The notes under the pieces were generated by a model that saw only the letters and a list, made by a program, of their open reading frames with translations, searched no databases and was not told the DNA's origin. From an uncultured Lachnospiraceae bacterium (GTDB lineage: Bacteria > Bacillota > Clostridia > Lachnospirales > Lachnospiraceae), in assembly GCA_934899185.1 (NCBI GenBank), contig CAKXYI010000005.1, forward strand, positions 59,750 to 123,749: a stretch of DNA of 64,000 nucleotides. The letters run 5' to 3'. The translations under genes and the position numbers were made by a program. Position 1 is the first letter of the stretch. Each line of letters opens with the position of its first letter. This document shows, piece after piece, positions 48,215-64,000 of this stretch.

Positions 48215-50617
48215 TTATTTGAAAGTGACGATCGTGACACCGGCATCGCCCTCACCAAATTCGGCGAGATGGAATTCGTCGACGATCTTTTGTTTCCTTA
48301 AATACTGATGTACTGCCTTACGCAGGGCACCGGTTCCTTTGCCGTGGACGATACGGACGGATTTTAAATGTGATAAATAAGCATCATCTAGATACTTATC
48401 CAGTTTGGCTACGGCCTCGTCGCCGTTGAGCCCCAAAAGGTTGATCTCCGGGGAGATAGTAGCGGCCTTGCTAAAGCCACCATTGCCTGTGTAACGGCTC
48501 TTTTTGCCGGTTGTCTTAGCAGCTGTATCATTGTCCTCTAAGAGGACCAGATCATTGATGTTGACCTTGGAACGCATAATGCCCATCTGCACCTGCAGAT
48601 CGCCTTTGACGTTTGGCAGGGAGTAAACGGTTCCGTTGATGTTCATGGAGAGCACCTTGACCGGATCACCTACACGCAGGTTCTTTGGTACTTTATGGTT
48701 CTTTGGATTCTCTGCCTTTTTGGCACCGACAGAGGCTTTCTGGCGGCTGTCTGCTAATTTCTTACCGACAGCGGCACGCTTGGCTTCCATCTTGGCAATA
48801 TCCGGGTTGGAATGACTGTATTTGTTGAAGTCGCGGATGGTCTCGTCTGCAATCTGCTTGGCTTCCTGCAAGATGTGGGAAGCATCCTCATTTGCCTGAC
48901 GAAGAATTTTATCCTTAGAGGTATTCAGCCGTTCTTCACGCTCTTTTAACTTCTTTTGCAGATCTGCAATTTCTTTTTTCTGTCGTGCAATTTCCTCACT
49001 GTCACGCATCATAGCAACTCGTCTTTGCTCTAAGTCGACCATGAGGTCCTCAAAATTCTGGTCATCTTCCGTGACATGGGCCTTGGCATCCGCGATCAGG
49101 TCATCTGACAGACCGAGTTTTTTTGAGATAGCAAAGGCATTACTCTTTCCCGGGATACCGATGAGCAGATGATAGGTCGGACTCAGGGTTTCTACGGAAA
49201 ATTCACAACAGGCATTTTCTACGCCCGGTGTGGATAAAGCATACATTTTTAACTCACTATAGTGGGTCGTTGCCATGGTAAGGACACCGCGCTCATGTAA
49301 ACTGGATAAGATAGCAGTCGCAAGGGCTGCACCTTCTTTGGGGTCTGTACCGGCACACAACTCATCAAAAAGACAGAGGTAATGTCCACTGGATCTCTCT
49401 ACCTTCCGTAAGATATGCACAATATTGGTCATATGTGAGGAGAAAGTCGAGAGGGACTGTTCAATACTCTGCTCGTCTCCGATATCAGCAAAGATATCAT
49501 CAAACACGGCTAACTGGCTACGATCCTTGGTCGGGATATGCAGTCCTGCCTGCCCCATCAGGCTGAGCAGTCCGCAGGTCTTGAGGGAGACCGTCTTACC
49601 ACCGGTATTTGGACCTGTTACAATGAGGAGGTTATAGTCCCTCCCCAGTGTCAGATCGATCGGTACGACATGTTTGGGATCCAAAAGCGGATGTCTTGCC
49701 GCGCGCAGATGGATGATGCCATCGGTATGAAACTCCGGCTCAACGGCGTTCATCTTGCGGGCGAGTTCTCCCTTGGCAAAGATGAAATCCAGTTCTGCCA
49801 AGATCATAAAGTCCTGTGAGATCTCCTCTGTATGTTCTGCGACAAGATTGGACAAGTCGGCTAAGATCTTTTCAATCTCCTCTGCCTCCTGCAATTCCAG
49901 TTCACGCAGGGAGTTGTTGAGATTGACGACGGACATAGGCTCGATAAATAGGGTAGAGCCACTGGAGGACTGGTCATGTACCATGCCGGGAACGTAGTTC
50001 TTGTACTCTGCCTTGACCGGCAGACAATAGCGCCCGCCACGGACTGTGATCACGCCATCCTGTAAGTAAGAACGTGTCGTATTGTTGTTTAACATGGTAT
50101 TCATCTGGGTGCGGATACGCTCGCCGATGACATTCTTTTGCCTGCGGATATTTTTCAGCCCAGGACTGGCATCGTCCGCGATGCTATCTTCCGATAAGAT
50201 ACAGTGGCGGATCTCCTGACAGACCGGTGTGAGTGGTTCCAGATTGTTAAAGAAATGAGCCAGATGATCGCCCTCGATCGACAGATCATTTTCACTGCGT
50301 CCATAGGTCTTGACCCGCTTGGCAACCTCTAAAAGAGAGGCAATCGCCAATAGTTCCGAAATCGTCAAAGAAGACCCGATCTCCAGATGTTTTAGGAAAG
50401 GACGTACATCCGTAATGCCGGAGAAAGAGACACTTCCCCGTTTAAAGATACGGCTGAGAGCATCCTTGGTCTCTGCCTGCATGCGTTTGATCTGTGAAAG
50501 ATCAGAAACGGGCAGAAGTTCACGGCAATAAGCCTTTCCCTGTGTACTGCCAGCACATTGCTCCAACAGAGCGATTATTTTGTTGTATTCGAGTGTTTTT
50601 AATGCTTTCTTATTCAT
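48215..50617 (-). CDS. mutS2: Endonuclease MutS2 / ribosome-rescue factor
   Basis: 800 residues from ATG 50617. MutS-type core and ATPase domain with Walker A GPNTGGKTVSLKT, Walker B CLFDELCAGTDP, a long coiled coil (about 530-640) and a C-terminal Smr domain with VRIVHGKGTGALRKA. In other Firmicutes MutS2/RqcU limits recombination and splits collided ribosomes. The start MNKKALKTLEY matches family N termini. There is no ribosome binding site before this ATG, and TATAAT lies seven bases upstream, so the mRNA may be leaderless. Confidence 0.95.
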   Translation of the reverse strand: MNKKALKTLEYNKIIALLEQCAGSTQGKAYCRELLPVSDLSQIKRMQAETKDALSRIFKRGSVSFSGITDVRPFLKHLEIGSSLTISELLAIASLLEVAKRVKTYGRSENDLSIEGDHLAHFFNNLEPLTPVCQEIRHCILSEDSIADDASPGLKNIRRQKNVIGERIRTQMNTMLNNNTTRSYLQDGVITVRGGRYCLPVKAEYKNYVPGMVHDQSSSGSTLFIEPMSVVNLNNSLRELELQEAEEIEKILADLSNLVAEHTEEISQDFMILAELDFIFAKGELARKMNAVEPEFHTDGIIHLRAARHPLLDPKHVVPIDLTLGRDYNLLIVTGPNTGGKTVSLKTCGLLSLMGQAGLHIPTKDRSQLAVFDDIFADIGDEQSIEQSLSTFSSHMTNIVHILRKVERSSGHYLCLFDELCAGTDPKEGAALATAILSSLHERGVLTMATTHYSELKMYALSTPGVENACCEFSVETLSPTYHLLIGIPGKSNAFAISKKLGLSDDLIADAKAHVTEDDQNFEDLMVDLEQRRVAMMRDSEEIARQKKEIADLQKKLKEREERLNTSKDKILRQANEDASHILQEAKQIADETIRDFNKYSHSNPDIAKMEAKRAAVGKKLADSRQKASVGAKKAENPKNHKVPKNLRVGDPVKVLSMNINGTVYSLPNVKGDLQVQMGIMRSKVNINDLVLLEDNDTAAKTTGKKSRYTGNGGFSKAATISPEINLLGLNGDEAVAKLDKYLDDAYLSHLKSVRIVHGKGTGALRKAVHQYLRKQKIVDEFHLAEFGEGDAGVTIVTFK

Positions 50618-50624
50618 AAAATGT

Positions 50625-50671
50625 ATTATACACAAAAATATATTGAAAGACCAGTCATTCAACCGTATAAT
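50625..50671. promoter_or_regulatory. Overlapping divergent promoters of mutS2 and the YhaM-type gene
   Basis: Forward: TTGAAA (50643-50648), 17 bp, TATAAT (50666-50671), for the nuclease gene. Reverse: TATAAT (complement of 50625-50630) with a weak -35 about 17 bp away, for mutS2. The two promoters overlap. Confidence 0.6.
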
Positions 50672-50760
50672 AAAAACTGCATGAATGTAGTAAAGATAGG
50701 GCGTAAGGGCATATAGAGGTATGGCGCAAGAAGACGCTCTGCATAGAAGAGGAGAATGTA

Positions 50761-51711
50761 ATGAGATTTATCAAAGACCTCACAGAGGGAGAAAGAATCA
50801 ATGAAATATATTTGTGCCGCAAAAAGCAATCGGCACTGACCAAGGCAGGAAAGCCATACGAAAGCCTGATGCTGCAGGATAAGACCGGGACACTGGATGC
50901 CAAGATCTGGGAACCGAGTTCCATGGGAATTGATGACTATGACGAATTGGATTATATCTGGGTGCAGGGAGATATCACATCTTTCCAGGGCGCATACCAG
51001 TTAAATATCAAGAGACTGCGCGTTGCGCAGGAGGGCGAATACATACCGGCGGATTATCTTCCGTGTTCTGATAAGGACGTGGATCTCATGTATGAGGAAT
51101 TGCTGGGATTTATCGGGACGATCAAGGCACCATATATGAAGCAACTGCTTTTGAGTTTCTTTGCAGACGAGGATTTTGCCAAGCGTTTTAAGTTCCATTC
51201 TGCTGCCAAGAGTGTGCATCATGGCTATGTGGGAGGCCTTTTGGAACATACACTGGGCGTGACAAAGAATTGTGATTTTTACGCACAGACTTATCCGATT
51301 TTAAATCGTGATTTACTTTTGACTGCTGCTATTTTCCATGATATCGGAAAATTGGATGAACTTTCCCCATTTCCACAGAATGACTATACCGATGAGGGAC
51401 AGTTGTTGGGACACATTATGATCGGCGCTGCCAAGGTACAGGAGCGTATCAATACGATCGAGGGATTCCCGGAGGTCAAGGCAAGGGAACTGATCCACTG
51501 TATTTTGGCACATCACGGCGAATTGGAATTTGGTTCACCGAAGAAGCCTGCGATCGCAGAGGCAGTGGCACTTAGTTTTGCGGACAACATCGATGCCAAG
51601 ATGGAGACCATGAAAGAAGCCTTAGGCAATGTGGCAGAGGGCGACCTCAAGTGGCAGGGATTCAACCGTTTGTTTGATTCTAATATCAGAAAGACAAGTA
51701 CAGAGGACTAA
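50761..51711 (+). CDS. yhaM: 3'-5' exoribonuclease YhaM family (OB + HD domains)
   Basis: 316 residues. The N-terminal OB fold (about 12-90, with MLQDKTGTLDAKIW) binds nucleic acid; the HD phosphohydrolase domain (about 150-290) has HHGYVGGLLEHTLGV, AIFHDIGKLDEL and CILAHHGELEFGSP. YhaM trims RNA and single-stranded DNA 3' ends in Gram-positive bacteria. GAGGAG precedes the start. The methyltransferase gene begins one base after its stop. Confidence 0.92.
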   Translation: MRFIKDLTEGERINEIYLCRKKQSALTKAGKPYESLMLQDKTGTLDAKIWEPSSMGIDDYDELDYIWVQGDITSFQGAYQLNIKRLRVAQEGEYIPADYLPCSDKDVDLMYEELLGFIGTIKAPYMKQLLLSFFADEDFAKRFKFHSAAKSVHHGYVGGLLEHTLGVTKNCDFYAQTYPILNRDLLLTAAIFHDIGKLDELSPFPQNDYTDEGQLLGHIMIGAAKVQERINTIEGFPEVKARELIHCILAHHGELEFGSPKKPAIAEAVALSFADNIDAKMETMKEALGNVAEGDLKWQGFNRLFDSNIRKTSTED

Positions 51712-51712
51712 T

Positions 51713-53158
51713 ATGAAAAAGAATGATACCTTTATCCTGAAAATCGAAGATATGGGCATCGGCGGTGAAGGCATTGGCAAATATGAGGGGATGACCTTTT
51801 TTGTCAAAGATGCCGTCATTGGAGACGAGATTCTTGCGGGCGTGACTAAGCTGAAAAAAGGCTATGGCTACGCCCGCCTTGTTGAAATTGTGAAACCATC
51901 GCCGAAGCGTGTGGAGGCTCCCTGCAAGATAGCAAGACAGTGCGGGGGATGTCAGATCCAAAATCTCTGTTATGAGGAGCAACTGGTTCTCAAACAGAAA
52001 AAAGTCGAAAATAACTTAAGGCGGATCGGCAGCTTTTCACAGGAACAAGTGGAAAAGGTCATGGAGCCAGTGGTCGGGATGGAGGATCCGTTCCGCTATC
52101 GCAATAAGGCGCAGTTTCCTTGTGGATATGATAAGGACGGCAATATCGTCTTTGGATTTTATGCGGCAAGGAGCCATCAGGTCATCCCGATCGATGACTG
52201 CCTGCTGGGGGTCAGTGAGAATGCAAAGATCCTAGCTGTCATCAAAGAGTACATGGAAGCCTGCCATATCAAGCCTTATGATGAGACGACAGGGCAAGGT
52301 CTGCTGCGTCATGTCTTGATACGCAAAGGTTTTCATAGTGGACAAGTCATGGTCTGCCTGATCATCAATGGGGATAAATTGCCGCAGGCAGATCGATTGG
52401 TGGAGAGTTTGTCGGAAGTCCCGGGCATGCACAGCATTTCTTATAATGTAAATAAGGAAAAGACCAACCGTATCCTTGGTGATAAGGTGCAGCTTTTGTG
52501 GGGAGATCTGTGTATCCGCGATACCATTCATCGGGTCAGAGAAGAAGAGTCTGGGGGATTTACCAGGACAGATGAGAGCGTGACTTTTGCTATCTCGCCA
52601 AAATCTTTTTATCAGGTGAACCCGGTGCAGACGGAGAAATTGTACAGTCTTGCTTTGGAGTATGCGGGACTGACAGGCAAGGAGATCGTCTGGGATCTTT
52701 ACTGCGGTATCGGAACCATTTCTTTATTTTTGGCACAGGCGGCAAAGCAGGTGTATGGTGTGGAAATTGTGCCGGAAGCCATTGCGGATGCCAGAGAAAA
52801 TGCCAAGAATAATCAGATCGAAAATGCAACTTTTTATGTGGGCAAGGCAGAGGAAGTGCTACCGGCATGGGTAGAAGAACATGCAGATGATGGTGATGCA
52901 GGTCTGCACCCGGATGTGATCGTTGTGGATCCGCCGCGCAAGGGTTGTGATGAGAAGTGCTTGGAAACCATGGTTGCCATGGCACCGGAGCGGATCGTTT
53001 ATGTCAGTTGCGATTCCGCTACTTTGGCCAGAGACTTGAAATACTTACAGGGAAAGGGGTATGAGGTGCTGCGCGTGCGACCGGTCGACCAATTTTGCCA
53101 CTCCATGCATGTTGAGTCAGTGGTTCTGATGCAGTATTGTGGAAAAGAGAAGAAATAG
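51713..53158 (+). CDS. rlmCD: 23S rRNA (uracil-C5)-methyltransferase, RlmD/RlmCD type
   Basis: 481 residues from ATG 51713. A TRAM domain (about 5-62, IEDMGIGGEGIGKYEGMTFF) is followed by iron-sulfur cysteines in CKIARQCGGCQIQNLC, a central domain and the SAM domain with DLYCGIGTISLFLA and catalytic DPPRKGCD plus YVSCDSATLARDL. It makes m5U in 23S rRNA (position 1939 and possibly 747). Last core gene before the accessory island. Confidence 0.93.
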   Translation: MKKNDTFILKIEDMGIGGEGIGKYEGMTFFVKDAVIGDEILAGVTKLKKGYGYARLVEIVKPSPKRVEAPCKIARQCGGCQIQNLCYEEQLVLKQKKVENNLRRIGSFSQEQVEKVMEPVVGMEDPFRYRNKAQFPCGYDKDGNIVFGFYAARSHQVIPIDDCLLGVSENAKILAVIKEYMEACHIKPYDETTGQGLLRHVLIRKGFHSGQVMVCLIINGDKLPQADRLVESLSEVPGMHSISYNVNKEKTNRILGDKVQLLWGDLCIRDTIHRVREEESGGFTRTDESVTFAISPKSFYQVNPVQTEKLYSLALEYAGLTGKEIVWDLYCGIGTISLFLAQAAKQVYGVEIVPEAIADARENAKNNQIENATFYVGKAEEVLPAWVEEHADDGDAGLHPDVIVVDPPRKGCDEKCLETMVAMAPERIVYVSCDSATLARDLKYLQGKGYEVLRVRPVDQFCHSMHVESVVLMQYCGKEKK

Positions 53159-53232
53159 GCGAGTTTAACCACAAGATGTTGTGGTTTGAGGGCAAAAAAT
53201 GGGACGAAAATCGACCAGTTTTTGCCCGATTT

Positions 53233-53248
53233 TTTTGCCCATTTTTAT
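53233..53248 (+). repeat. Island motif copy 1 (TTYTGCCCATTTTKAT)
   Basis: TTTTGCCCATTTTTAT. It matches copies at 61467-61482 and 62821-62836 at 14 or more of 16 positions. It lies between the core genome and the first recombinase remnant. Confidence 0.55.
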
Positions 53249-53336
53249 AGATGCATAGGGGCAAAAAAGAGATTTTGGGGTGATTTGAGGAAAAAAGAGA
53301 GGAGGAAACAAAAGAAAATTGCAGATGAATATGTGA

Positions 53337-53379
53337 GGCGGTACTTATTTTAGAAATGAAATAGGTACCGCCATTTTTA
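53337..53379 (+). terminator. Rho-independent terminator-like hairpin
   Basis: GGCGGTACTTATTT pairs with AAATAGGTACCGCC with one mismatch, followed by ATTTTTATTG. It lies between the core operon and the recombinase remnant. Confidence 0.75.
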
Positions 53380-53405
53380 TTGTCAAAAGAACAGGAGGAA
53401 GAAAA

Positions 53406-54173
53406 GTGTCGGGATTATTTTGTAGCAGCCCGCAGCTCTGCATACTGGAGAGACAAATGCAGCAGCCACCGGGGTATCGTCCGAGAGGACAGGGGATCTG
53501 TATCATGAATGCAGAAGAATGGAAAAGCCGCGGGAATTATACCGAGCTTGTGGATTGTGTGATCAGCAGTATGCAGATGGAACATCTGAAAAAGAGGATA
53601 AGTGAAATTTTTGAGAAGGTAGATAAGGAAATGATTTTCGGAAGTATGAAATATCGAAAAGATTTCTATTTTCTACTGACAGGCAGAAGAGGGAAAAACC
53701 TATGCATGGAGGCCATTCACCGGATTACAAGAAATGATGGAGATTTTATAGGAGCCTTCCGACAGAATGTCATACGGGTGATTGGTAGCTACGGAAAGGA
53801 GCAGGAGCCGGATGAGTATGAGGACAAGATAAAAGCAAAACAGCAAGAAATGGTGGCGCTGATAGCCGAGAACGCAAAGACAGGCTCTTACACGCAGGAA
53901 TTTGATGAACGCTACCGGAGCATCGCAAAGGAAATCGAAATCTTAAAGCAGGAGCAGGCAGAGACCAGAAAGAAGAAAAGACTGGCAGAAAGTTATGAAC
54001 AGAGGGTAAAAGACATGGATGCATTCATAAGGGGAAGCACCTGTCAGATACCGGAATTTGACAATGACCTTGTCAGAAGGTTGATTTCAAGCATCAAAGT
54101 AGTCTCTGCCGAGAAAATGATTATCCAGTTTCAGTCGGGAATCGTCATGGAACAGGAAATCAGATATGACTAA
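53406..54173 (+). pseudogene. C-terminal remnant of a large serine recombinase
   Basis: 255 residues from GTG 53406 with AGGAGGAAG upstream, so a fragment could still be translated. The resolvase catalytic domain is missing. The C-terminal two thirds match large serine recombinases: a helix around RQNVIRVIGSYG, a charged coiled coil (about residues 140-205) and the closing strand segment FDNDLVRRLISSIKVV. The first third does not line up cleanly with the family zinc ribbon and may be frameshifted or rearranged. It marks the left side of the island. Confidence 0.75.
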
Positions 54174-54179
54174 GAAAAA

Positions 54180-54222
54180 GGCAGGGATGACAACTGAATA
54201 AGGAAAGCGTTATTCCTGCCGG
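54180..54222. other. Large hairpin downstream of the recombinase remnant
   Basis: GGCAGGGATGAC can pair with GTTATTCCTGCC around an 18-base loop. There is no T run after it. It may be what is left of a recombination site or a weak terminator. Confidence 0.45.
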
Positions 54223-54349
54223 TTTGCGGTAAGAATAAGATAATGGAATAATTATAAGCATTATGATATGATTTTGGCATATTAAGGATATAGAAAATGT
54301 GATATATTCTATCTTTAAGAATAGAATAATTGATTTTTGAGAGGTTATG

Positions 54350-55144
54350 ATGAGCAAACAACTTGTAGAGACTTTGACAGATGCAGCAGTAATGGATGCT
54401 TCACATATTTCTAGTGCAATAGAATTGGATGGATATTATGGTGTATATGAAACAATGGTCGAATACCTTGATGAATATTTGGATGGATTTTACAAATCAA
54501 GTAAAGATAGTCTCTTGCACAGATATATACGAACACAATTGGTGGATGGGCTTTTATATGAAGCTGTAATAGAGAATACACCAGAAGAATATGTGTTGTG
54601 TGAACACAATGAAGCGCTATTTAATCTTTTTGGATATTCGTTCTCTGTTGTAGGAGATTTGCCGCTAGGATATCCCGAATATGATGAGGAGTATTTTGAG
54701 GAGTGGAAAGAGTTCGCTGAAAAAGTGAATAGTTTCTATTGTGATAATATTAATGAGCAATGGGCAGAACATGTATTCTATATTCTTTATACTAATAAGG
54801 ATTTTTTGTTCAGATTTAATACAGAAGTCGCAAAAGTAGTTAAAGATCTAAAAAAAGCAGATTATCCCAACATGCTAAAAAGAGATGGCGTAATAAAAAG
54901 AAGAAATTTTCCGGTATGGTTACAAAAAGCTGTAAAAATGAGAGACAGAAATCGCTGTCAGTTATGTGGAAAGGATTTGTCTGGAACATATAATTTGTCA
55001 GATGAGAATTTCGATCATATGGTACCATTGGAAGATGGAGGAACGAATGATCCCTGCAATATACAGTTGACGTGTGAGCATTGTAATAAATCTAAGGGGG
55101 CAAGGAGTAGAGATTATAAAAATATTATAATTCCTTTTTGGTAA
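54350..55144 (+). CDS. HNH endonuclease-domain protein
   Basis: 264 residues from ATG 54350 (AGAGG six bases upstream; another ATG directly before it is closer to the site). The first 190 residues are acidic and mostly helical, without a recognised family. The last 75 hold a full HNH nuclease: RDRNRCQLCGKDL, the catalytic DHMVPLEDGGTNDP and CEHCNKSKG, with two CxxC zinc pairs. It is AT-rich compared with the core genes. It is the first gene of a probable three-gene operon with the kinase and AlbA-type genes. Nuclease activity on invading DNA is a reasonable guess. Confidence 0.88.
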   Translation: MSKQLVETLTDAAVMDASHISSAIELDGYYGVYETMVEYLDEYLDGFYKSSKDSLLHRYIRTQLVDGLLYEAVIENTPEEYVLCEHNEALFNLFGYSFSVVGDLPLGYPEYDEEYFEEWKEFAEKVNSFYCDNINEQWAEHVFYILYTNKDFLFRFNTEVAKVVKDLKKADYPNMLKRDGVIKRRNFPVWLQKAVKMRDRNRCQLCGKDLSGTYNLSDENFDHMVPLEDGGTNDPCNIQLTCEHCNKSKGARSRDYKNIIIPFW

Positions 55145-55187
55145 TGAATATATGTGAAAAAGAAGTTATCTGGCAGGGGGTGATAAA

Positions 55188-56696
55188 ATGGAATCAGTAA
55201 TTAATAAATTATTTGAGTACTATGACAATGTTTTTTTCGAAGAAAAAGTTGAAGTGGATCAGCGAGGATATATGGGGACTCATTATGATGGATTAAATTT
55301 AGATTATTATTTAGAGGATTCCATTTTTGGAATTGATTATTTATCCATTGAAGATTACTTTGAAACGGTAGCAAACGTGAAATATGTTGAAACGGAAAGC
55401 CTTTTTAATCAATATTCCAATAAGAACTTGGAAACTAAACAACAAGTAATTGGAGCCATTTTAACATTAGTTAATAGTTCTTCATATCGGAAAGAAATGA
55501 AAAATACTATTATGGATAAATCCAAAGCTTTTCTAAAACGATTTGGATTAGAATTAAAAGAAGATGCAGGAATTATACAGATAAAGAATGACTATAAACT
55601 CTTTGAGGGAAGTTATTGTGAGATTTTTCTGTTTAATGAGCAGATTTACAAAAAGCAGCTTAAGGCACAATATCGATCAGATGAAGCATGGAAGAAGAGA
55701 TTTAAATACGAGTATGAAAATATGCTTAGATTGGCTAAGTCACCGTATGTTCTGAAGGTTTTTAATTATGATGGGGACAATGACTCATATTTAATGGAAA
55801 AATGCGACTGCAATGTTTATGATTATTTGGAGAATAATCCATTTAAAGATGATAAGTTGATTTTGCAAATTATTGAAGAACTGTTATTAGGAATGAAAGA
55901 TGTTCATGAAGCGGGCATAATACATAGAGATTTGCATTTGGGAAATATTTTAATTAAAGAGGGACATGTTGTATTGTCTGATTTTGGGTTGAGCAAAGAT
56001 ACCATGATAAACCATAGCTTGAAATCGACTTCAACCCCGAAGAACTCACATTATTTTATTGATCCCATTGGACTGCATGATTTTACTGCATTGGACAAGC
56101 TGAGTGATATATATTCGATTGGAAAAATCATTGATTATATTACAAGCGAAAGTGAGTTAAACAAAAAGTTGTCTTTTGTTATCAGTAAAGCAACAGAACG
56201 TAATAGAGTTAAACGCTACGCTACGATGGACGAAATGATTCAGGACGTAAATAGCTCCGTGAAAGAGCTTTCAGAAGAAGAAAAAATTAGGAATATCGAG
56301 GAGAATCTGCAACGAGGTGAGATTTCCAAGGATGTAGAAGAATTTGTGATGAGACTTATGAGGCAGGAGCAACTTTCTAATTACATCGTAAGAAAACAGC
56401 TATATGCATTTTGGAAAGTATTAATACAATTCAACGAAATAGATCAGTTGGCACTTTTGGGTGAGATAGATAGAACATATTCAGAAGCAACCGGTTATGG
56501 GCACTTCGAAAATTATGATTTGTTTGCTGGTATAGCGTATAATGTTATTAAGAATTCTGCTAATATAAAAATACAGAGAAAAGCGTACAGCATACTGGAG
56601 GGATGTGCCAGTTACAGGTATAATGCCAGTGATTATCTCAAAGAAATTAATATATATTATCCCAACATATTGTCTCAGGAAAAGAGAAAAATATAA
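55188..56696 (+). CDS. Ser/Thr protein kinase with extra N- and C-terminal domains
   Basis: 502 residues. An N-terminal region of about 130 residues without recognised family precedes a eukaryotic-type kinase domain (about 135-365). It has a glycine-poor loop at FEGSYCEIF, a candidate Lys at 155-156, the catalytic HRDLHLGN (His246 to Asn253) and DFG (265-267). The last 130 residues are helical. There is no membrane helix, so it is cytoplasmic. The catalytic residues look intact. Soluble kinases occur in phage defence systems; here it sits between an HNH nuclease gene (43 bp upstream) and an AlbA-type gene (9 bp downstream). Confidence 0.88.
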   Translation: MESVINKLFEYYDNVFFEEKVEVDQRGYMGTHYDGLNLDYYLEDSIFGIDYLSIEDYFETVANVKYVETESLFNQYSNKNLETKQQVIGAILTLVNSSSYRKEMKNTIMDKSKAFLKRFGLELKEDAGIIQIKNDYKLFEGSYCEIFLFNEQIYKKQLKAQYRSDEAWKKRFKYEYENMLRLAKSPYVLKVFNYDGDNDSYLMEKCDCNVYDYLENNPFKDDKLILQIIEELLLGMKDVHEAGIIHRDLHLGNILIKEGHVVLSDFGLSKDTMINHSLKSTSTPKNSHYFIDPIGLHDFTALDKLSDIYSIGKIIDYITSESELNKKLSFVISKATERNRVKRYATMDEMIQDVNSSVKELSEEEKIRNIEENLQRGEISKDVEEFVMRLMRQEQLSNYIVRKQLYAFWKVLIQFNEIDQLALLGEIDRTYSEATGYGHFENYDLFAGIAYNVIKNSANIKIQRKAYSILEGCASYRYNASDYLKEINIYYPNILSQEKRKI

Positions 56697-56705
56697 GGAG
56701 TGGCT

Positions 56706-58112
56706 ATGAAATTAGAACAACTGATTGGTGAAGCAACCGAATATGACAAAAAAGTAATGTTAGAGGTGAAAAAACCAAAGAGTTGGTTGAAAAGCGTAAG
56801 TGCTTTTGCCAATGGTGTGGGCGGTGTACTTATTTTTGGTATTGCGGATGATGACTCTGTGGTGGGGATTGATGATGTAAAGAAAGCTATGGAAGTTATA
56901 AGCGAACAGATAAAAATAAAAATGGACCCAACTCCGGAAGTCCTGTTAAATGCGCATCTTGTAGATGGCAAGGAAATCATAACCTTGGAAGTATATCAGG
57001 GAGAAGAGACACCTTATTATTATGTAGGAGAAGGAAATTATACTGCCTATGTCAGAATTGGCAATGAGAGCGTAATGGCCACCGCTACAGATTTGAAGAG
57101 ACTGGTTTTACGGGGAAAAAACAGAACATATGACAGTCTCGTAACGGATTATTGTTTTGATGATTATTCCTTTTCTAAGTTAAAAGCAGCATATTACAAA
57201 AAAACGAAAAAAAGCATGGAAATGAAAGACTTTGAATCGTTTGGTATTGTTGACAAGAATGGTATGTTGACAAATGCAGGTGCTTTGCTTGCTGATGAAT
57301 CTCCCATTTATTGTTCAAGGCTATTTTGTACCAGATGGAATGGTATAGATAAAGCATCAGGAGTTATAGATGCTCTGGATGATGAGGAGTATACAGGAAG
57401 CCTTATATTGTTATTGGAAGAAGGTATGAATTTTGCACGAAGAAATTCGAAGAAGATGTGGAAAAAGGAATCTGATAGACGAGTAGAATATCCGGAGTAT
57501 CCGGAGAGAAGCATTTTTGAAGGTTTGGTTAATGGATTGGTGCATCGTGATTATTTAGATATGGGAAGTGAAGTCCATATTGATATCTTTGATGATCGTT
57601 TGGAAATATATTCACCAGGTGGTATGTATGATGGCTCATTAATTCAAGACAGAGACATTGACAATGTACCATCAAAGCGCAGAAATCCAGTGGTGGCAGA
57701 TATTTTTAGCAGGCTTGATTTTATGGAACGAAGGGGTAGTGGTTTTAAAAAGATCATGCAGGCGTATGAAGTGGAACCAAATTATACAGAAGACAAAAAG
57801 CCACTCTTTTATTCAAATGCGACGGAATTCAGAGTTATATTAAAAAACCTTAATTTTACCAATGAAGTTTTGAATGATAAAAATGAAGTTTTGGATGAAG
57901 TTTTGGATGAAGTTTTGAATTTTGATGGAACAGAAATGGAGGTTAAAGTAATAAGAGCAATATTGCTTTTACCAAGAATTAAGCAGAAGAAATTGGCTGA
58001 ACAAGTGGGAGTATCTGTAAGTACCATTCAACGAACTATTAAAAAATTGGTTAAAGAGGGTAAAATAGTTCGAATGAATGGAAAGAGAGATGGCTATTGG
58101 AAAGTTTTATAA
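56706..58112 (+). CDS. AlbA_2/Schlafen-type DNA-binding protein with ATPase-like and HTH domains
   Basis: 468 residues from ATG 56706, set by AAGGAG overlapping the kinase stop; a GTG two codons earlier is possible. The N-terminal AlbA_2 domain (about 10-130) has FANGVGGVLIFGI and YVRIGNESV. A HATPase_c_4-like domain (about 240-385) has LVNGLVHRDY, DDRLEIYSPGGM and RRGSGFKKIM. A 4-residue repeat (NEVL/DEVL) forms the linker, and a C-terminal winged HTH (about 415-468, LAEQVGVSVSTIQRTIKKL) ends the protein. Relatives are annotated as transcriptional regulators or ATP-binding proteins, and some Schlafen-like relatives are nucleases. Tight coupling to the kinase gene suggests the two act together. 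Confidence 0.88.
   Translation: MKLEQLIGEATEYDKKVMLEVKKPKSWLKSVSAFANGVGGVLIFGIADDDSVVGIDDVKKAMEVISEQIKIKMDPTPEVLLNAHLVDGKEIITLEVYQGEETPYYYVGEGNYTAYVRIGNESVMATATDLKRLVLRGKNRTYDSLVTDYCFDDYSFSKLKAAYYKKTKKSMEMKDFESFGIVDKNGMLTNAGALLADESPIYCSRLFCTRWNGIDKASGVIDALDDEEYTGSLILLLEEGMNFARRNSKKMWKKESDRRVEYPEYPERSIFEGLVNGLVHRDYLDMGSEVHIDIFDDRLEIYSPGGMYDGSLIQDRDIDNVPSKRRNPVVADIFSRLDFMERRGSGFKKIMQAYEVEPNYTEDKKPLFYSNATEFRVILKNLNFTNEVLNDKNEVLDEVLDEVLNFDGTEMEVKVIRAILLLPRIKQKKLAEQVGVSVSTIQRTIKKLVKEGKIVRMNGKRDGYWKVL
57863..57918 (+). repeat. Short 12-bp tandem repeat inside the AlbA-type gene
   Basis: (A/G)ATGAAGTTTTG occurs four times, three of them in direct tandem, encoding (N/D)EVL units. The unit is a multiple of three, so copy-number change would alter only linker length. 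Such linker repeats are common in this protein family. Confidence 0.8.
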
Positions 58113-58263
58113 ATTTTAAGTTTGCGAGAAGGTTACAGACTAAGTGGATCAGAATTGCTTGTGCTGTTAAGCATAAATAACTATAAGAAAGAGAAGCAGT
58201 CATTCATAATCGAACAATGACCACTAAAAGGTGGTGGATTAAATAGTGTAAGAGGTATAGAGC

Positions 58264-61200
58264 ATGGATTATGTATTGGAGTTTGACGAATTTGTTAGAT
58301 CAATTAAACAGAATATGGATACAAAATTCTCTATGTTTTTAGGAGCTGGGGCGTCTGTTGAATCAGGAATACCATCGGCAGGAGAGTGTATCTGGGAATG
58401 GAAACGAGATATATTTATATCAAAAAATCCAGTTCTGGCAGAAACGCATAATAACATAAAGTCTGAGCAAGTAAAGCGGTCAATTCAGAACTGGTTAGAT
58501 AATCAGGGTATATATCCACAACTAAATTCAGAAGAAGAATATTCAAAATATATTGAGGCAGCATATAAAATAGCCGATGATAGAAGGAAGTATTTCCAAC
58601 ATTTGATAGAAGGAAAAAATCCAAGTTTAGGATATCATATCATTGCTTTACTTGCTGAGAATGAAATTGTGAAGAGTGTTTGGACAACAAATTTTGATGG
58701 TTTAATGCTAAAAACGGCTCATTCTTATGGAATAGTACCTATCGAGGTGACATTGGAATCACAAGATAGAATTTTCCGTAATGATACAGATAAAGAACTA
58801 CTATGCATAGCGCTGCATGGAGATTATAAGTATGGCCCGTTAAAAAATACAGAAACAGAATTAGACAATCAAAGCGATGTTTTAGTTAAGACCTTGTCAC
58901 ATGAAATTGAAAAGAGAAATTTTATTGTACTGGGGTATAGTGGAAGAGATAATTCTGTGATGGATGCTCTAGAAAGAGCTTACATGGAAAAAGGTGCGGG
59001 AAGGATATATTGGTGTGGATATGGAAGAGATATTCCACCCAAAGTGCAGAGATTTCTTGAAAAGATTAATCAGTCTGGGAGAAGTGCATTTTATGTTCCG
59101 ACAGATGGATTTGATAAAACGATGCTAAACATTGCACATATGTTTTTCGAAAATGAGGATTTGCAGAGAAGGATAGATGAAATTAAGAAAAATCTAGGTG
59201 TAGGAGCAGAGTGCGAAACAACTGCGTTTCAACCTTTTACAGATGAGATAAATAAATGCATGGATACAAACTTGTTTCCTATAAAATTCCCTAATCAGTA
59301 TTATCAATTTAAAATTGTTTATAAAGATGGGGAGAAACCTTGGGATTATTGCAAGAGTTTACAGCAATATAATATTATTGCTGTGCCTTATAATGATATG
59401 GTATATGCTTGGGGGAATATGAATTCAATCAGGAGTATGTGTGCGGGACAGCTAGAAGGAAAAATAGAAAGTGCGCCTATTCTTAAAGATGTATTTTTGA
59501 ATAATAAAACATTTAGAGAAATGTTGCTTAGAGCATTAGTTACTATTATAGGCAAATATAGTGGGTGTGAATATAATAAAAATAAGATATGGAGGAAAAG
59601 TGAAAAATTCAGCCAGATGGTTGATGGAAAAAAGATTATTGCATACAGAGGAATACAATTTTCGCTTTTTTCGGATGGAAAGTACAATTATCTTGCTTTT
59701 ATACCAGCATATTTTTATGAAAATAATAAAGATGTGAATAAAGAAGAGCATTTAGAATTTTCAAAAAAATTTATTGAAAACATTTGTCAGAGGCAAGCAA
59801 ATAAGAATTATTATGGGTATTTAGAAAAATGGAGAAAAATTATTTTTCGTGAAAATACAACTATATGTGCTATGTATCCTTTTGATTCAGACTCTGGTTT
59901 TGAATTTAAAATTGTAAATAAAAGTATGTTGGTTGGTATGCATTCAAAATACAACGCAAATTTGTCTGACGCTGTAAGCAAAAATCGAATACAGATATGT
60001 GCAAGAGATTTATTGGATGCGGAATTAAAATTTTACAATCCGAAATATGGAGCAATGCAAAAGGATTTTCACCCAATGAGAGGTCTGGTAAATAATATGC
60101 CTTATGATTATGAAATGAATAATAAGGTATACGCACCAACAATCAAATTAGGAATAATATGTCCAGTCAGCGGACAGGGAAAATTTGAAAGTTTTTTAGA
60201 TGGATTACATAAGCCACATACGACAAGACATAATACGGATTATGTAATAAATTATCCAGGATTCCACAGTGTTTTCGGTGTGGGGCTTGATATTCCAGCA
60301 AGAAGTGAGTGGTTAGCGTTTGATGATGTGGAACTTAAAGAACATGATATATACAAAGCTGCTATTGCATTTGGAAAACAAATAAACAAAAGGATTGAAG
60401 AACTAGGACGTAATGGTCATTTGGATGTTATTATGATTTATATTCCAAAGGAGTATGAGATACTTACAAGCTATGAAGATGAAGTTACTAGATTTGATTT
60501 GCATGATTATGTTAAGGCTTTTGCAGTTCAAAAACATATATCAACTCAGTTTATTAGAGAAAAGACTTTAGATAGTGAATTAGATTGTCAAATTGCTTGG
60601 GCAATATCATTGGCTATTTATGTTAAAGCAGGGCGAACTCCATGGGTTCTTTCAAATCTGCGAACGGATACCGCATTTGCAGGTATTGGTTACAGCGTTA
60701 ACCATTTTAAGAATGGGGAACAAACATTAATTGGATGTAGTCATATATATGCGTCAGATGGACAAGGGTTAAGGTATAAGTTAAGTAAGATAAAGGATGT
60801 TACCTTTGATGCACAAAAAAATCCATATTTATCTGAGAATGAAGCATATCAACTTGGATTAAATATAAAAGAACTATTTTTTTCATCCTTTTCAAGTTTG
60901 CCAAAGAGAGTTGTTATACATAAAAGAACCCCCTTTAAGGAAGAGGAAATCGCAGGTTTGACTAAATGTCTTGGTAGTGCCGGAATAAAAGATATTGATC
61001 TAATAGAGATTACTTATGACGAAAACTTTAAATGTTTCGAGTATAACAAGTATTTACAAGCAGATTTATTTCCAGTTAAGAGAGGGTGTTGTTTTGCAAT
61101 TAATGATAATACAGCATATCTTTTTACGCATGGAATAGCACCGTCGGTTATTTCAGATCGTCGATATTTTCAGGGTGGAACTAATGTGCCAGCACCATTG

Positions 61201-61401
61201 AAAATTGTAAAGCATTATGGAAATGGCGATTTGGCTCAAATAGCATCAGAAATACTAGGATTATCAAAAATGAATTGGAATAGTTTTGGATTATATTCAA
61301 AATTACCATGTACAATTCAGTCTTCTAACGCAATAGCAAAAGTAGGCTGGTTATTACCACAATATGAAGGAATGATTTATGAATATAGAAATTTTATGTA
61401 A
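58264..61401 (+). CDS. SIR2-APAZ-Argonaute fusion (short pAgo defence protein, SPARSA type)
   Basis: 1045 residues. A SIR2 domain (about 20-295) has the NAD-binding FLGAGASVESGIPSA, WTTNFDGL (TNFD 142-145), the candidate catalytic His185 in ALHGDY and LGYSGRDN. A middle APAZ-like region (about 310-620) is followed by MID (about 700-780, LHDYVKAFAVQKHISTQFI) and PIWI (about 780-1045, including VVIHKRTPF and FTHGIAPS). At the first catalytic Asp position of PIWI the sequence is AGIGYS, so slicing is not expected. Known SIR2-type short Argonautes use guides to sense invader DNA and then destroy NAD+, killing or arresting the cell. Here all parts are in one chain. AGAGG precedes the start; the gene is very AT-rich. 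Confidence 0.9.
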   Translation: MDYVLEFDEFVRSIKQNMDTKFSMFLGAGASVESGIPSAGECIWEWKRDIFISKNPVLAETHNNIKSEQVKRSIQNWLDNQGIYPQLNSEEEYSKYIEAAYKIADDRRKYFQHLIEGKNPSLGYHIIALLAENEIVKSVWTTNFDGLMLKTAHSYGIVPIEVTLESQDRIFRNDTDKELLCIALHGDYKYGPLKNTETELDNQSDVLVKTLSHEIEKRNFIVLGYSGRDNSVMDALERAYMEKGAGRIYWCGYGRDIPPKVQRFLEKINQSGRSAFYVPTDGFDKTMLNIAHMFFENEDLQRRIDEIKKNLGVGAECETTAFQPFTDEINKCMDTNLFPIKFPNQYYQFKIVYKDGEKPWDYCKSLQQYNIIAVPYNDMVYAWGNMNSIRSMCAGQLEGKIESAPILKDVFLNNKTFREMLLRALVTIIGKYSGCEYNKNKIWRKSEKFSQMVDGKKIIAYRGIQFSLFSDGKYNYLAFIPAYFYENNKDVNKEEHLEFSKKFIENICQRQANKNYYGYLEKWRKIIFRENTTICAMYPFDSDSGFEFKIVNKSMLVGMHSKYNANLSDAVSKNRIQICARDLLDAELKFYNPKYGAMQKDFHPMRGLVNNMPYDYEMNNKVYAPTIKLGIICPVSGQGKFESFLDGLHKPHTTRHNTDYVINYPGFHSVFGVGLDIPARSEWLAFDDVELKEHDIYKAAIAFGKQINKRIEELGRNGHLDVIMIYIPKEYEILTSYEDEVTRFDLHDYVKAFAVQKHISTQFIREKTLDSELDCQIAWAISLAIYVKAGRTPWVLSNLRTDTAFAGIGYSVNHFKNGEQTLIGCSHIYASDGQGLRYKLSKIKDVTFDAQKNPYLSENEAYQLGLNIKELFFSSFSSLPKRVVIHKRTPFKEEEIAGLTKCLGSAGIKDIDLIEITYDENFKCFEYNKYLQADLFPVKRGCCFAINDNTAYLFTHGIAPSVISDRRYFQGGTNVPAPLKIVKHYGNGDLAQIASEILGLSKMNWNSFGLYSKLPCTIQSSNAIAKVGWLLPQYEGMIYEYRNFM

Positions 61402-61432
61402 TTAAGCTCCTTCTACAAGAAATGAGTAGAAT

Positions 61433-61470
61433 AAAACCTTCAAGTCTACAGGATTTGGAGGTTTTATTCT
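61433..61470 (+). terminator. Terminator after the SIR2-Argonaute gene
   Basis: AAAACCTTCAA (61433-61443) pairs with TTGGAGGTTTT (61455-61465) with one G-T pair. The next bases start island motif copy 2. Confidence 0.8.
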
Positions 61471-61482
61471 GCCCATTTTTAT
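61467..61482 (+). repeat. Island motif copy 2 (TTYTGCCCATTTTKAT)
   Basis: TTCTGCCCATTTTTAT directly after the terminator of the Argonaute gene. The terminator plus motif (about 42 bp) is similar to the unit at 62795-62836. Confidence 0.6.
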
Positions 61483-61603
61483 CAAAATGTCATTTCCAGG
61501 AAAGATACGCTGTGATAAAATGTGCTTAGATATTTTTGGTAATATAAGAGAAATGTTTAGCATGATGCTCTAAGTTTGAAAAGACGAAAGGGAATGTATA
61601 AAG

Positions 61604-62773
61604 ATGAAATTAAATATGACATGTGAAACGTGTGAATTCGGCTCGAATAAAAGTTGTTGCGCTGAGAATAGTAAAAAAAATTATCAAAATATTACAGAGT
61701 GTGATGACTGGGGAGCATCCTTGGAATATTATTCAGAAATCATAGACAATGCTCCATGGTATATTAAAGAACCCTATAGAAGATGCCATATTAGTTATGA
61801 TAAGTTTATGGATCTTTTAAGAAAAGATGATCAAGGAATAGGAATTGAAATCAATATTTATGACGCAATAGAGAAAGTTTATGAAGTAACACCTTGGGAA
61901 TTGGCAGGGGTGTTAGGTGTATCAATAGGAGTACTTGGATATGCTAGGACAAGAAAGACAATAGACAAGAGAAAAAAGCAGTTTTCAAGTAGATTACATA
62001 TTCCGGAAAGTTTTTTTGACCGGTTTCTATCTACGCAGCTTGAGGCATTAAAACAATGCAGAGAGGAATTCTATGAATTTTACGGAAGTGAAACCATTAA
62101 AAAGTTTAAGCAAAATGGAATAGATGCAATGCATTTAAAATTTGTAGAAGATGCCGCTCATGATAAAATTCTTAATGAACAATATCGAGAAGAATATCAA
62201 TATAAGTATCAGCATGAGGAGAAAAATAAGATGTATCATGATTTATCAGATGATTATAAGTCAAGAGATTATGTGATAGCGATAACCTTAAAAGAGGGTG
62301 AATATTATGGAAATTTATTTTATGAATATAATTATGGTGGTTATGGATTATCGGTATCGATTATGAGAGATATATTGGACTTTGTTGAAAATCTTGATTG
62401 CGAAGAAATAGATGCATTAAATGAGGAAGGTTTATTAAATAATAACATTGGTTTAAAATCAGATATGAATGGCAAGGAAATTCATTTCGAATTGAAAAAT
62501 GAAAGAGGAGATGTGCTAAAGAAGACAATATCGGAAGATGAGTTGCAAAAATATATTGTAGGCTATGAAATGATTAGATGTGGTGGGCATGGAATGAAAA
62601 AGGAGCGTAGGCGATGTAGTTCTTGCCAAAATTTTAAGCCAATAGAAGGATGTGCTAAAGGAAATTGTATTGCCAGAGGAGATATAGTTCAAAGAAGTAG
62701 AATAATATGTGCATTTGATTATATTCCCAATAAAAATGAGTGTTGTAATGAGGAGACTTTATATAATAGCTAA
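61604..62773 (+). CDS. Cys-cluster protein of unknown function with internal HTH-like segment
   Basis: 389 residues, no recognised family. Cysteine clusters sit at both ends: CETCEFGSNKSCC (residues 7-19) and CSSCQNFKPIEGCAKGNC near residue 345, followed by SRIICAFDYIPN. They look like zinc-binding knuckles. Around residues 95-115 the segment PWELAGVLGVSIGVLGYART resembles a helix-turn-helix, followed by a basic stretch. The middle is highly charged and Tyr-rich. GAAAGGGAATG lies before the ATG. It is AT-rich and stands alone between two related terminators. A DNA-binding role is possible. Confidence 0.8.
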   Translation: MKLNMTCETCEFGSNKSCCAENSKKNYQNITECDDWGASLEYYSEIIDNAPWYIKEPYRRCHISYDKFMDLLRKDDQGIGIEINIYDAIEKVYEVTPWELAGVLGVSIGVLGYARTRKTIDKRKKQFSSRLHIPESFFDRFLSTQLEALKQCREEFYEFYGSETIKKFKQNGIDAMHLKFVEDAAHDKILNEQYREEYQYKYQHEEKNKMYHDLSDDYKSRDYVIAITLKEGEYYGNLFYEYNYGGYGLSVSIMRDILDFVENLDCEEIDALNEEGLLNNNIGLKSDMNGKEIHFELKNERGDVLKKTISEDELQKYIVGYEMIRCGGHGMKKERRRCSSCQNFKPIEGCAKGNCIARGDIVQRSRIICAFDYIPNKNECCNEETLYNS

Positions 62774-62786
62774 AATGGTTGGAATC

Positions 62787-62820
62787 AAGCCTCTAAGTCA
62801 CATATGATTTGGGGGCTTTC
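62787..62820 (+). terminator. Terminator after the Cys-cluster gene
   Basis: AAGCCTCTAAGTCA pairs with TGATTTGGGGGCTT using several G-T pairs, followed by TCTTCTG and island motif copy 3. Confidence 0.75.
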
Positions 62821-62836
62821 TTCTGCCCATTTTGAT
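62821..62836 (+). repeat. Island motif copy 3 (TTYTGCCCATTTTKAT)
   Basis: TTCTGCCCATTTTGAT, one base different from copy 2 over 16 bp. Confidence 0.6.
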
Positions 62837-63435
62837 TTCGGAAAATCTATCCGAAAAAGCAAAACTATGGTACAATTGCAAGTAGCGATATTTGCCATAG
62901 TAAAGAGCAGATTTCAAATCAAACCGAAGCCAATCAAAGGCTCGTCTAAGAAATCAATTCTAATCTTTTCTGTGGCAGGTGCATCTGGGTGCAGTATGCC
63001 GTTTTTACAGGACCCAAAAGGGACCATTGTGTCATTTTTTGAATCCAAGGCTTAACGGAAAGCCAAGGGTTGTGCATCTAAATTGCACACTCATGGCATG
63101 TGGAGACGGTTGTATTGATGTCAAAAGTGAACCCTAAGAAGTAAAAATAATGTAGTAAATAAAAGGCTTTTCAGAGAGCTATCGTTATTGAGTACGATTG
63201 GCTGCTGGAAAGCCTTTCTTTTTATGCTTGAAAATTGCTTTGTGGGAATTGGTCCACAATGCAGGGGTGACACTAGGGGATAGATAACAAGAGAAAATGA
63301 ACCCAGGGGTTCACCTTATAACGATAAGAAAAGTAAGAAAAACAGCGGTTGGAGAAGGTTCCGGCCGCCGCCCGTCATTAACGATAATTCTTATTGTAGA
63401 GCTCTTTTGCGTATGACTGCATCTTCTTTACGTAA
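62837..63435. other. Non-coding debris of about 600 bases
   Basis: No convincing gene was found. An 83-codon open frame (62804-63055) has no ribosome binding site or family resemblance. GGCTT/AAGCC (about 63049-63064) and the palindrome TGAACCC-AG-GGGTTCA (63298-63313) are present. On the reverse strand about 63372-63460 reads GYDYVKKMQSYAKELYNKN and then a stop, which looks like the end of a decayed gene. Confidence 0.5.
63162..63223 (+). terminator. Terminator-like hairpin in the island debris
   Basis: AAAGGCTTTTCAG pairs with CTGGAAAGCCTTT around a branched loop that contains ATCGT/ACGAT, then CTTTTT. The gene it served is no longer recognisable. Confidence 0.7.
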
Positions 63436-63726
63436 TCATATCCGATCCTTGAGCTGGAAGCAAACCAGCTTCACACATTTGAGGTGCAGGTGCTTATGAA
63501 AAATGGTGCTGCTCACATAGAAAATCAGGATATCATGGCAAGGGCAAAGACAGAAGGAGTGAAAAAGAGAATCACAGAACTTGTAGATTTCCTTCAGGGT
63601 GCGCCGCAGAAACTAGGGGAGTATGATGAAGCGCTGGTTCGAAAGTATATAGAGCAAATCAAGATATTTGAAGACCGTTTCATAGTTTGCTTTAAGGCAA
63701 AGATGGAGCTTGATATTCAAAGATAA
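63436..63726 (+). pseudogene. C-terminal remnant of a second serine recombinase
   Basis: The frame opens after a stop at 63433; about 97 codons remain. LEANQLHTFEVQVLMKNGAA and the final segment EYDEALVRKYIEQIKIFEDR match the C-terminal end of large serine recombinases, like FDNDLVRRLISSIKVV in the remnant at 53406-54173, but the two are clearly different proteins. Catalytic and zinc-ribbon domains are absent. It marks the right side of the island. Confidence 0.7.
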
Positions 63727-63788
63727 TAGAAATAACGTACTTGTTGCCGTGATGGTGACGAGTATTTTTATATTTCGGTTAACATTTG

Positions 63789-63822
63789 ATACCTTGACAA
63801 ATATATTGTCAAGGTATATTGT
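63789..63822 (+). promoter_or_regulatory. Promoter with perfect palindromic operator before the Xre gene
   Basis: ATACCTTGACAA (63789-63800) and TTGTCAAGGTAT (63806-63817) are exact inverted repeats around ATATA. The left arm contains a consensus -35 (TTGACA 63794-63799); TATTGT at 63817-63822 is 17 bp on and may be the -10. A repressor dimer bound here would block the promoter, fitting autoregulation by the adjacent gene. Confidence 0.75.
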
Positions 63823-63845
63823 ATTTACACAAGGAGGATACATCA

Positions 63846-64000
63846 ATGGAAGAAATTCAGAGAATGCAAGATAACTTATTGTTGATAAGAAGAACTGTAG
63901 GATGGACTGCAGAGGAATTCGGTGATCAAATTGGTGTAACCCGTCAAACGATAAATAATATCGAAAGCGGTAGAAATAAACTTACAAAGACACAGTATAT
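63846..64000 (+). CDS. Xre-family HTH regulator (3' end outside window)
   Basis: 51 codons visible, running off the right edge. ATG 63846 follows AAGGAGG. The sequence has a complete helix-turn-helix: LLIRRTVGWTAEEFGDQIG, then VTRQTINNIESGRNKLT. Proteins of this type control phage, ICE and other mobile elements. The palindromic promoter in front suggests autorepression. What follows outside the window may show what it controls. Confidence 0.88.
   Translation, partial: MEEIQRMQDNLLLIRRTVGWTAEEFGDQIGVTRQTINNIESGRNKLTKTQY

Follow-up and report, generated by a model that had tools for sequence, protein, structure and literature searches.

Gene content of the locus

The window analysed here is a 64,000-nucleotide stretch of DNA from an uncultured Lachnospiraceae bacterium; all coordinates are positions within it, and all features given lie on its + strand unless stated. 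It contains a run of three genes encoding an HNH nuclease of 264 aa (open reading frame (ORF) 54347/54350–55144; ORF list and Pfam), an Stk2-like protein kinase of 502 aa (55188–56696; Pfam, the PADLOC Stk2 model, alignment, tree and structure model) and an AlbA protein of 468 aa that combines SLFN_AlbA_2, HATPase_c_4 and winged helix-turn-helix (HTH) domains (56706–58112; Pfam), followed by the gene of a one-chain SIR2-APAZ-Argonaute protein (58264–61401; 1353.8 bits to the PADLOC pAgo model). A first-pass annotation had proposed that the first three genes form a new defence system of their own. We instead consider it probable that they belong to a defence island that is associated with a recombinase, has moved horizontally and has a shared core and exchangeable ends, in which the units act in parallel and there is no dedicated three-protein system. 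This reading is built on gene content, selection, linkage and junctions; the mechanism and phage defence we infer.

The co-directional arrangement, AT richness and Argonaute neighbour described in that annotation were confirmed. The HNH and kinase genes are separated by 43 bp, and the kinase and AlbA genes by 9 bp if ATG at 56706, one of two candidate start codons (the other being GTG at 56700), is taken as the AlbA start. The GC content is 0.34 (HNH), 0.32 (kinase) and 0.36 (AlbA), versus 0.45 in the flank at 1–53158. Because both terminator-like sites detected in 53900–58400 lie on the − strand, co-transcription of the three genes as a putative unit is possible. Comparison with locus L002, which carries the same genes, gave ratios of non-synonymous to synonymous divergence (dN/dS) of 0.068 (HNH), 0.062 (kinase) and 0.060 (AlbA) at synonymous divergences (dS) of 0.43–0.58; the three genes are thus under strong purifying selection and are not decaying ORFs.

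In the first protein, the HNH domain (PF01844, 42.1 bits in Pfam) is preceded by an all-helical N-terminal domain of approximately 165 residues (predicted local distance difference test score (pLDDT) of the model, 84.5). Among 23 aligned relatives, residues D222, H223, N237 and N246 do not vary; of the four CxxC cysteines, three are likewise invariant and the fourth is at least 90% conserved. A Foldseek search with the structure model gave no match at E 0.001 or better for the N-terminal fold, and the VIA rows fell mostly on the HNH part. Two relatives, P0010 and P0014, stop early near a run of A in the window (54840–54865), which could reflect sequencing error or slippage. P0011 was considered as an HNH–kinase fusion and rejected: it joins two inner points, lacks the kinase N-lobe and is read as a deletion or an assembly chimera.

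The AlbA protein matched SLFN_AlbA_2 at 70.1 bits and HATPase_c_4 at 93.7 bits, together with the winged HTH, and its best PHROGs phage family is labelled DNA helicase. Lachnospiraceae proteins of the same composition, which we take to be COG2865-like, are 46–62% identical over their full length or nearly so; the window member is distinguished by its location in a defence island. Genes reported to lie near pAgos include those of Schlafen AlbA_2 proteins. Short tandem repeats precede the HTH in the window gene (57852–57920) and appear as DEVL-type repeats in the protein.

The Argonaute protein begins with a SIR2 NADase domain (58264–59163, approximately codons 1–300) that matches 8jkz_A over residues 4–290 and contains TTNFD and LHGD; the APAZ-MID-PIWI part, here called the sensor half, follows at 59164–61401, with a match of MID-PIWI to 8in8_C over residues 599–1045. 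In the Geobacter SPARSA complex, both chains have a counterpart in this protein, in its SIR2 and MID-PIWI parts. The presumed APAZ region is spanned by the PADLOC pAgo and Aga_SIR2 models (residues 3–1045 and 5–1045), and residues 291–598 had no PDB match. One-chain SIR2-APAZ-pAgo proteins belong to group Ia, of which the one-chain form is said to be the majority (PMC6299218). Short Argonautes with SIR2 are reported as antiviral systems that work through NAD+ (PMC10781750, PMC10474274).

An Stk2-like kinase

The intact HRD and DFG motifs ascribed to the kinase begin at residues 246 and 265, and K156, E175, H246, R247, D248, D265, F266 and G267 are invariant in 32 aligned kinases. Besides the kinase domain (Pkinase, 67.6 bits in Pfam), the protein has conserved N- and C-terminal domains (alignment; model pLDDT 86.6, predicted template-modelling score 0.57). 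PADLOC Stk2 was its best defence match, at 199.5 bits, with residues 98–487 aligned to positions 88–485 of the 500-position profile; it therefore resembles Stk2 in its length of approximately 500 aa and in a match that extends beyond the kinase domain. Stk2 is a staphylococcal abortive-infection kinase (PMC6532042, PMC11341870) that reportedly phosphorylates host proteins and thereby kills infected cells (PMC6532042); it is described as a single-locus system, unlike the setting found here.

The Stk2 profile reached E 1e-30 in 107 of 391 genomes of the class. Two of these scored 666–696 bits, and most of the other matches scored 106–119 bits and covered the kinase part only. In a 53-row tree, a 99/97 branch separated the window-like kinases from PknB-type rows and from the strong Stk2 rows L072 and L073. 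The tree is midpoint-rooted, with long end branches for L067, L024, L033 and P0212; the frameshifted kinase of L004 was excluded from it and from the dS counts, and the L005 kinase was included minus its first residues. With its lower score and separate tree group, the window kinase is, as judged by sequence, a member of an Stk2-like sister group and not Stk2 itself. The first-pass statement that the trio matches no named system accordingly stands for the trio but not for its kinase, which is related to a described system. The sister group that this kinase marks is well populated, with at least 245 proteins at E 1e-20, the weak end of which may include other kinases; no report of function for sister-group kinases was found in the literature searched.

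Other defence-type genes lie near kinase relatives, namely a Shedu SduA match (L035), an Mrr nuclease and a PDC-S37 match (both in L005) and, by our reading of the ORFs, type I restriction-like genes (L036 and L073). We take this proximity as favouring a role in defence for the kinase itself. Of the first-pass reading of the trio, the defence context, the intact kinase motifs and the Argonaute neighbour are supported. As a separate observation, the Stk2-type kinases of L036 and L073 adjoin putative type I restriction subunits, a possibly recurrent pairing. In L003 (8318–13121), a kinase relative is flanked on one side by a peptidase with weak likeness to Lit/M78 and on the other by a phosphoesterase that weakly resembles an anti-phage phosphoesterase model.

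Occurrence of the three genes together

Seven loci (L001–L007) emerged when GTDB was scanned with the kinase. Upstream sequence was available for five of them, with fewer than 800 bases in L004; L005 and L007 begin at the kinase. HNH adjoined the kinase in one of these five (L002), other genes taking its place in L001, L003, L004 and L006, and AlbA lay downstream of the kinase in three of the seven (L001, L002 and L004, not L003, L005, L006 or L007). Among all 112 fetched loci, HNH, kinase and AlbA occurred together only in L002 (L008 covers a shorter stretch of that locus), where the three proteins are 92–95% identical to those of the window. Searching these loci for the three genes together yielded none in unrelated genomes, and with the relatives mostly apart, the proposal of a single HNH–kinase–AlbA system was not sustained.

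The scattered occurrence of the individual genes is evident across 397 Lachnospiraceae genomes. The kinase was found in 5 of them, HNH in 2 (partial matches of 38–41% identity) and AlbA relatives in 43, at 48 places; AlbA and kinase co-occurred in one of those 43 (G001). In G269, one of the two genomes with HNH, a distant kinase (33%) lies approximately 1.1 Mb from it. No kinase, HNH or Argonaute relative was found at E 1e-5 in the 20 of 48 AlbA neighbourhoods that were fetched, three of them on contigs shorter than 5 kb. HNH relatives in L017, L018, L021, L022, L037 and L038 had no kinase relative within the fetched stretch. Of 391 genomes of the class, 6 had a match to the Argonaute; in the five besides G001, the fetched stretch contained neither kinase nor HNH nor AlbA relatives at E 1e-6. 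Plasmid, phage and viral records were scanned with short exact peptide patterns, by which close relatives only are detectable: in plasmid and phage records nothing matched the kinase across 80% of its length, and viral contigs gave four HNH relatives (L017, L018, L019 and L020; L017 and L018 were inspected) and no relatives of the kinase, AlbA, Argonaute or L004 protein. Plasmids had no DNA match for the trio. No publication on the trio was found among titles and abstract openings of the open-licence literature.

Probable exchange of ends around a shared core

The island is bordered on the left by a host gene that we read from its ORF as a 23S/tRNA uracil methyltransferase-type gene (51629–53158), and next to it lies a recombinase/integrase C-terminus remnant (53406–54173; phrog_95 integrase, 33.6 bits) that shares 79% identity across 155 aa with a 348-aa ORF in L002. 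In L001, cargo that is 98.5% identical to that of the window over 6.6 kb lies downstream of the same methyltransferase-type gene, the protein of which is only 58% identical between the two.

At the upstream end, similarity to the kinase-side cargo starts at 55179 for L001 and at 55178 for L004, inside the presumed ribosome-binding site of the kinase (55174–55187), which by these similarity starts and the alignment is the putative exchange point of the upstream gene. The kinase is preceded by HNH in the window and L002, by a 360-aa gene in L001 and by a 150-aa ORF in L004, so HNH is missing from two of the four related islands. Neither the 360-aa nor the 150-aa product had a Pfam, PADLOC, NCBIfam or PHROGs match at the limits used.

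At the downstream end, L004 (3742–6639) encodes, in one open frame of 965 aa, SIR2 followed by a putative STAND NTPase. This protein is 89% identical to the window Argonaute protein over residues 1–322 and has no significant similarity thereafter. Comparison of L002 and L004 DNA in 60-base steps revealed 95–100% identity over codons 1–280, 90% over the next 20 and background from approximately codon 320. Beyond SIR2, Pfam gave AAA_16 at 24.4 bits and weak nSTAND6, nSTAND5 and nSTAND1 rows; because all of these fall below the curated cut-offs, the assignment as a STAND NTPase is likely, not certain. The same fusion recurs with two residue differences in P0226, and because it is on a different contig (9,517 bases, compared with 14,013 bases for L004), an error of one assembly is unlikely. 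In P0227 the STAND part is 48% identical, and the SIR2 part is not matched. Avs5 is likewise SIR2-STAND (PMC12931631), but the SIR2 domain of the L004 protein corresponds to the one in the Argonaute protein; nSTAND3 did not appear among the Pfam rows of the L004 protein, nor any family named Avs among its PADLOC matches at E 0.01. The AlbA–Argonaute spacer (58113–58263) contains approximately 90 bp without a counterpart in L002 and L004, as judged by block ends and gap columns.

Divergence between the window and L002 also differs along the Argonaute gene. The dS of the SIR2 part (0.43, 0.33–0.56) resembles that of the kinase (0.51) and AlbA (0.43), whereas the remainder after SIR2 has a dS of 0.19 (95% interval, 0.15–0.24). 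The window protein, which with its SIR2 motifs and MID-PIWI is like SPARSA and one-chain SIR2-APAZ-pAgo proteins, departs from them in this unlike divergence of its halves. Against L001, the dS of the whole Argonaute gene (0.075, 0.054–0.096) exceeds that of the kinase (0.011, 0–0.027). The fusions in L004 and P0226 suggest a natural sensor swap on one SIR2 NADase effector, between Argonaute and a putative STAND part. No publication on such an Argonaute/STAND exchange was found in the titles and abstract openings of the open-licence literature.

Interpretation of the island

We propose an island whose shared core would comprise the Stk2-like kinase, the AlbA/ATPase/HTH protein and the SIR2 NADase domain, and whose exchangeable parts would be the gene before the kinase (here HNH) and the sensor half after SIR2 (here APAZ-Argonaute). 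To judge from their families, the units would act in parallel: a phage product may trigger the kinase to phosphorylate host proteins and stop the cell, as reported for Stk2; the SIR2-Argonaute protein, once its guide has directed it to nucleic acid of an invader, may deplete NAD+; the HNH protein may cut DNA independently; and the AlbA protein may regulate transcription or bind nucleic acid.

Several findings weigh against this proposal. L002 retains all three genes and the Argonaute gene in the same order at dS 0.25–0.58 from the window, so the four-gene arrangement is not trivially recent, and HNH is retained in both lineages. The core has been seen in only four islands (the window, L001, L002 and L004), three of which come from metagenome assemblies. 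The window kinase is only 28–29% identical to the strong Stk2 hits, so Stk2-like action is transferred across a deep split. Against L001, the dS of the SIR2 part (0.046, 0.016–0.085) and of the remainder (0.087, 0.057–0.115) overlap in range, which leaves L002 and L004 as the basis for assigning the sensor half a history of its own.

The locus could also be a plug-in immune platform, in which a constant kinase–AlbA–SIR2 core has both ends exchanged by precise recombination, the NADase is wired to Argonaute or STAND and the kinase coordinates the NADase with the changeable first gene; we regard this as unlikely. About equally doubtful is that the kinase and AlbA form a two-gene defence unit, in which the kinase acts through or on the AlbA DNA-binding ATPase and HNH and Argonaute are mere neighbours. 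The two genes are paired in four of four islands, across two lineages at dS 0.43–0.51 and with a 9-bp gap, which could mean a functional pair, and distant AlbA-like genes lie within a few kb of the distant kinases L034 and L035; these points, too, count against units that act separately. However, kinases of 49–68% identity in L003, L005, L006 and L007 have no AlbA downstream, and 42 of the 43 AlbA-bearing genomes lack a kinase match at E 1e-20.

That HNH, kinase and AlbA are one new system, with the kinase switching the nuclease upon infection, is improbable: order and close spacing are shared with L002 at dS of approximately 0.5, purifying selection acts on all three genes and no + strand terminator was found between them, but among the 112 fetched loci the complete set recurs at that one alone, L001 and L004 lack HNH and have their junctions where the kinase begins, and HNH relatives occur without a nearby kinase. 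It is very improbable that the exchanged ends of L001 and L004 are assembly chimeras in an otherwise uniform four-gene island, for although L001, L002 and L004 are contigs of metagenome-assembled genomes and the L004 frameshift may point to sequence errors, the SIR2-STAND fusion is a single open frame that recurs in P0226, and the two upstream junctions, which coincide with a gene border, differ in position by no more than 1 bp.

Under the proposed island with exchangeable ends, it is the exchange of sensors on the SIR2 effector that merits further work. These islands would provide a natural, nucleotide-level example of a sensor change from Argonaute to STAND NTPase on a fixed effector, and they raise the question of whether one NADase can obey two unrelated kinds of trigger.

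Other features of the locus

An Rfam scan of 50000–64000 gave nothing that reached the gathering threshold. Downstream of the Argonaute gene, an ORF of 389 aa (61604–62773) had no Pfam, PADLOC, NCBIfam or PHROGs match at the limits used, and its ends are cysteine-rich. A further ORF (63484–63726), with no PADLOC or NCBIfam match and one chance-level row in Pfam, is, by reading of the ORF, a possible second recombinase C-terminal remnant. Immediately 3′ of the Argonaute gene, an inverted repeat with 27-nucleotide arms that are 85% complementary (61420–61478) forms a predicted hairpin, which is a possible terminator.

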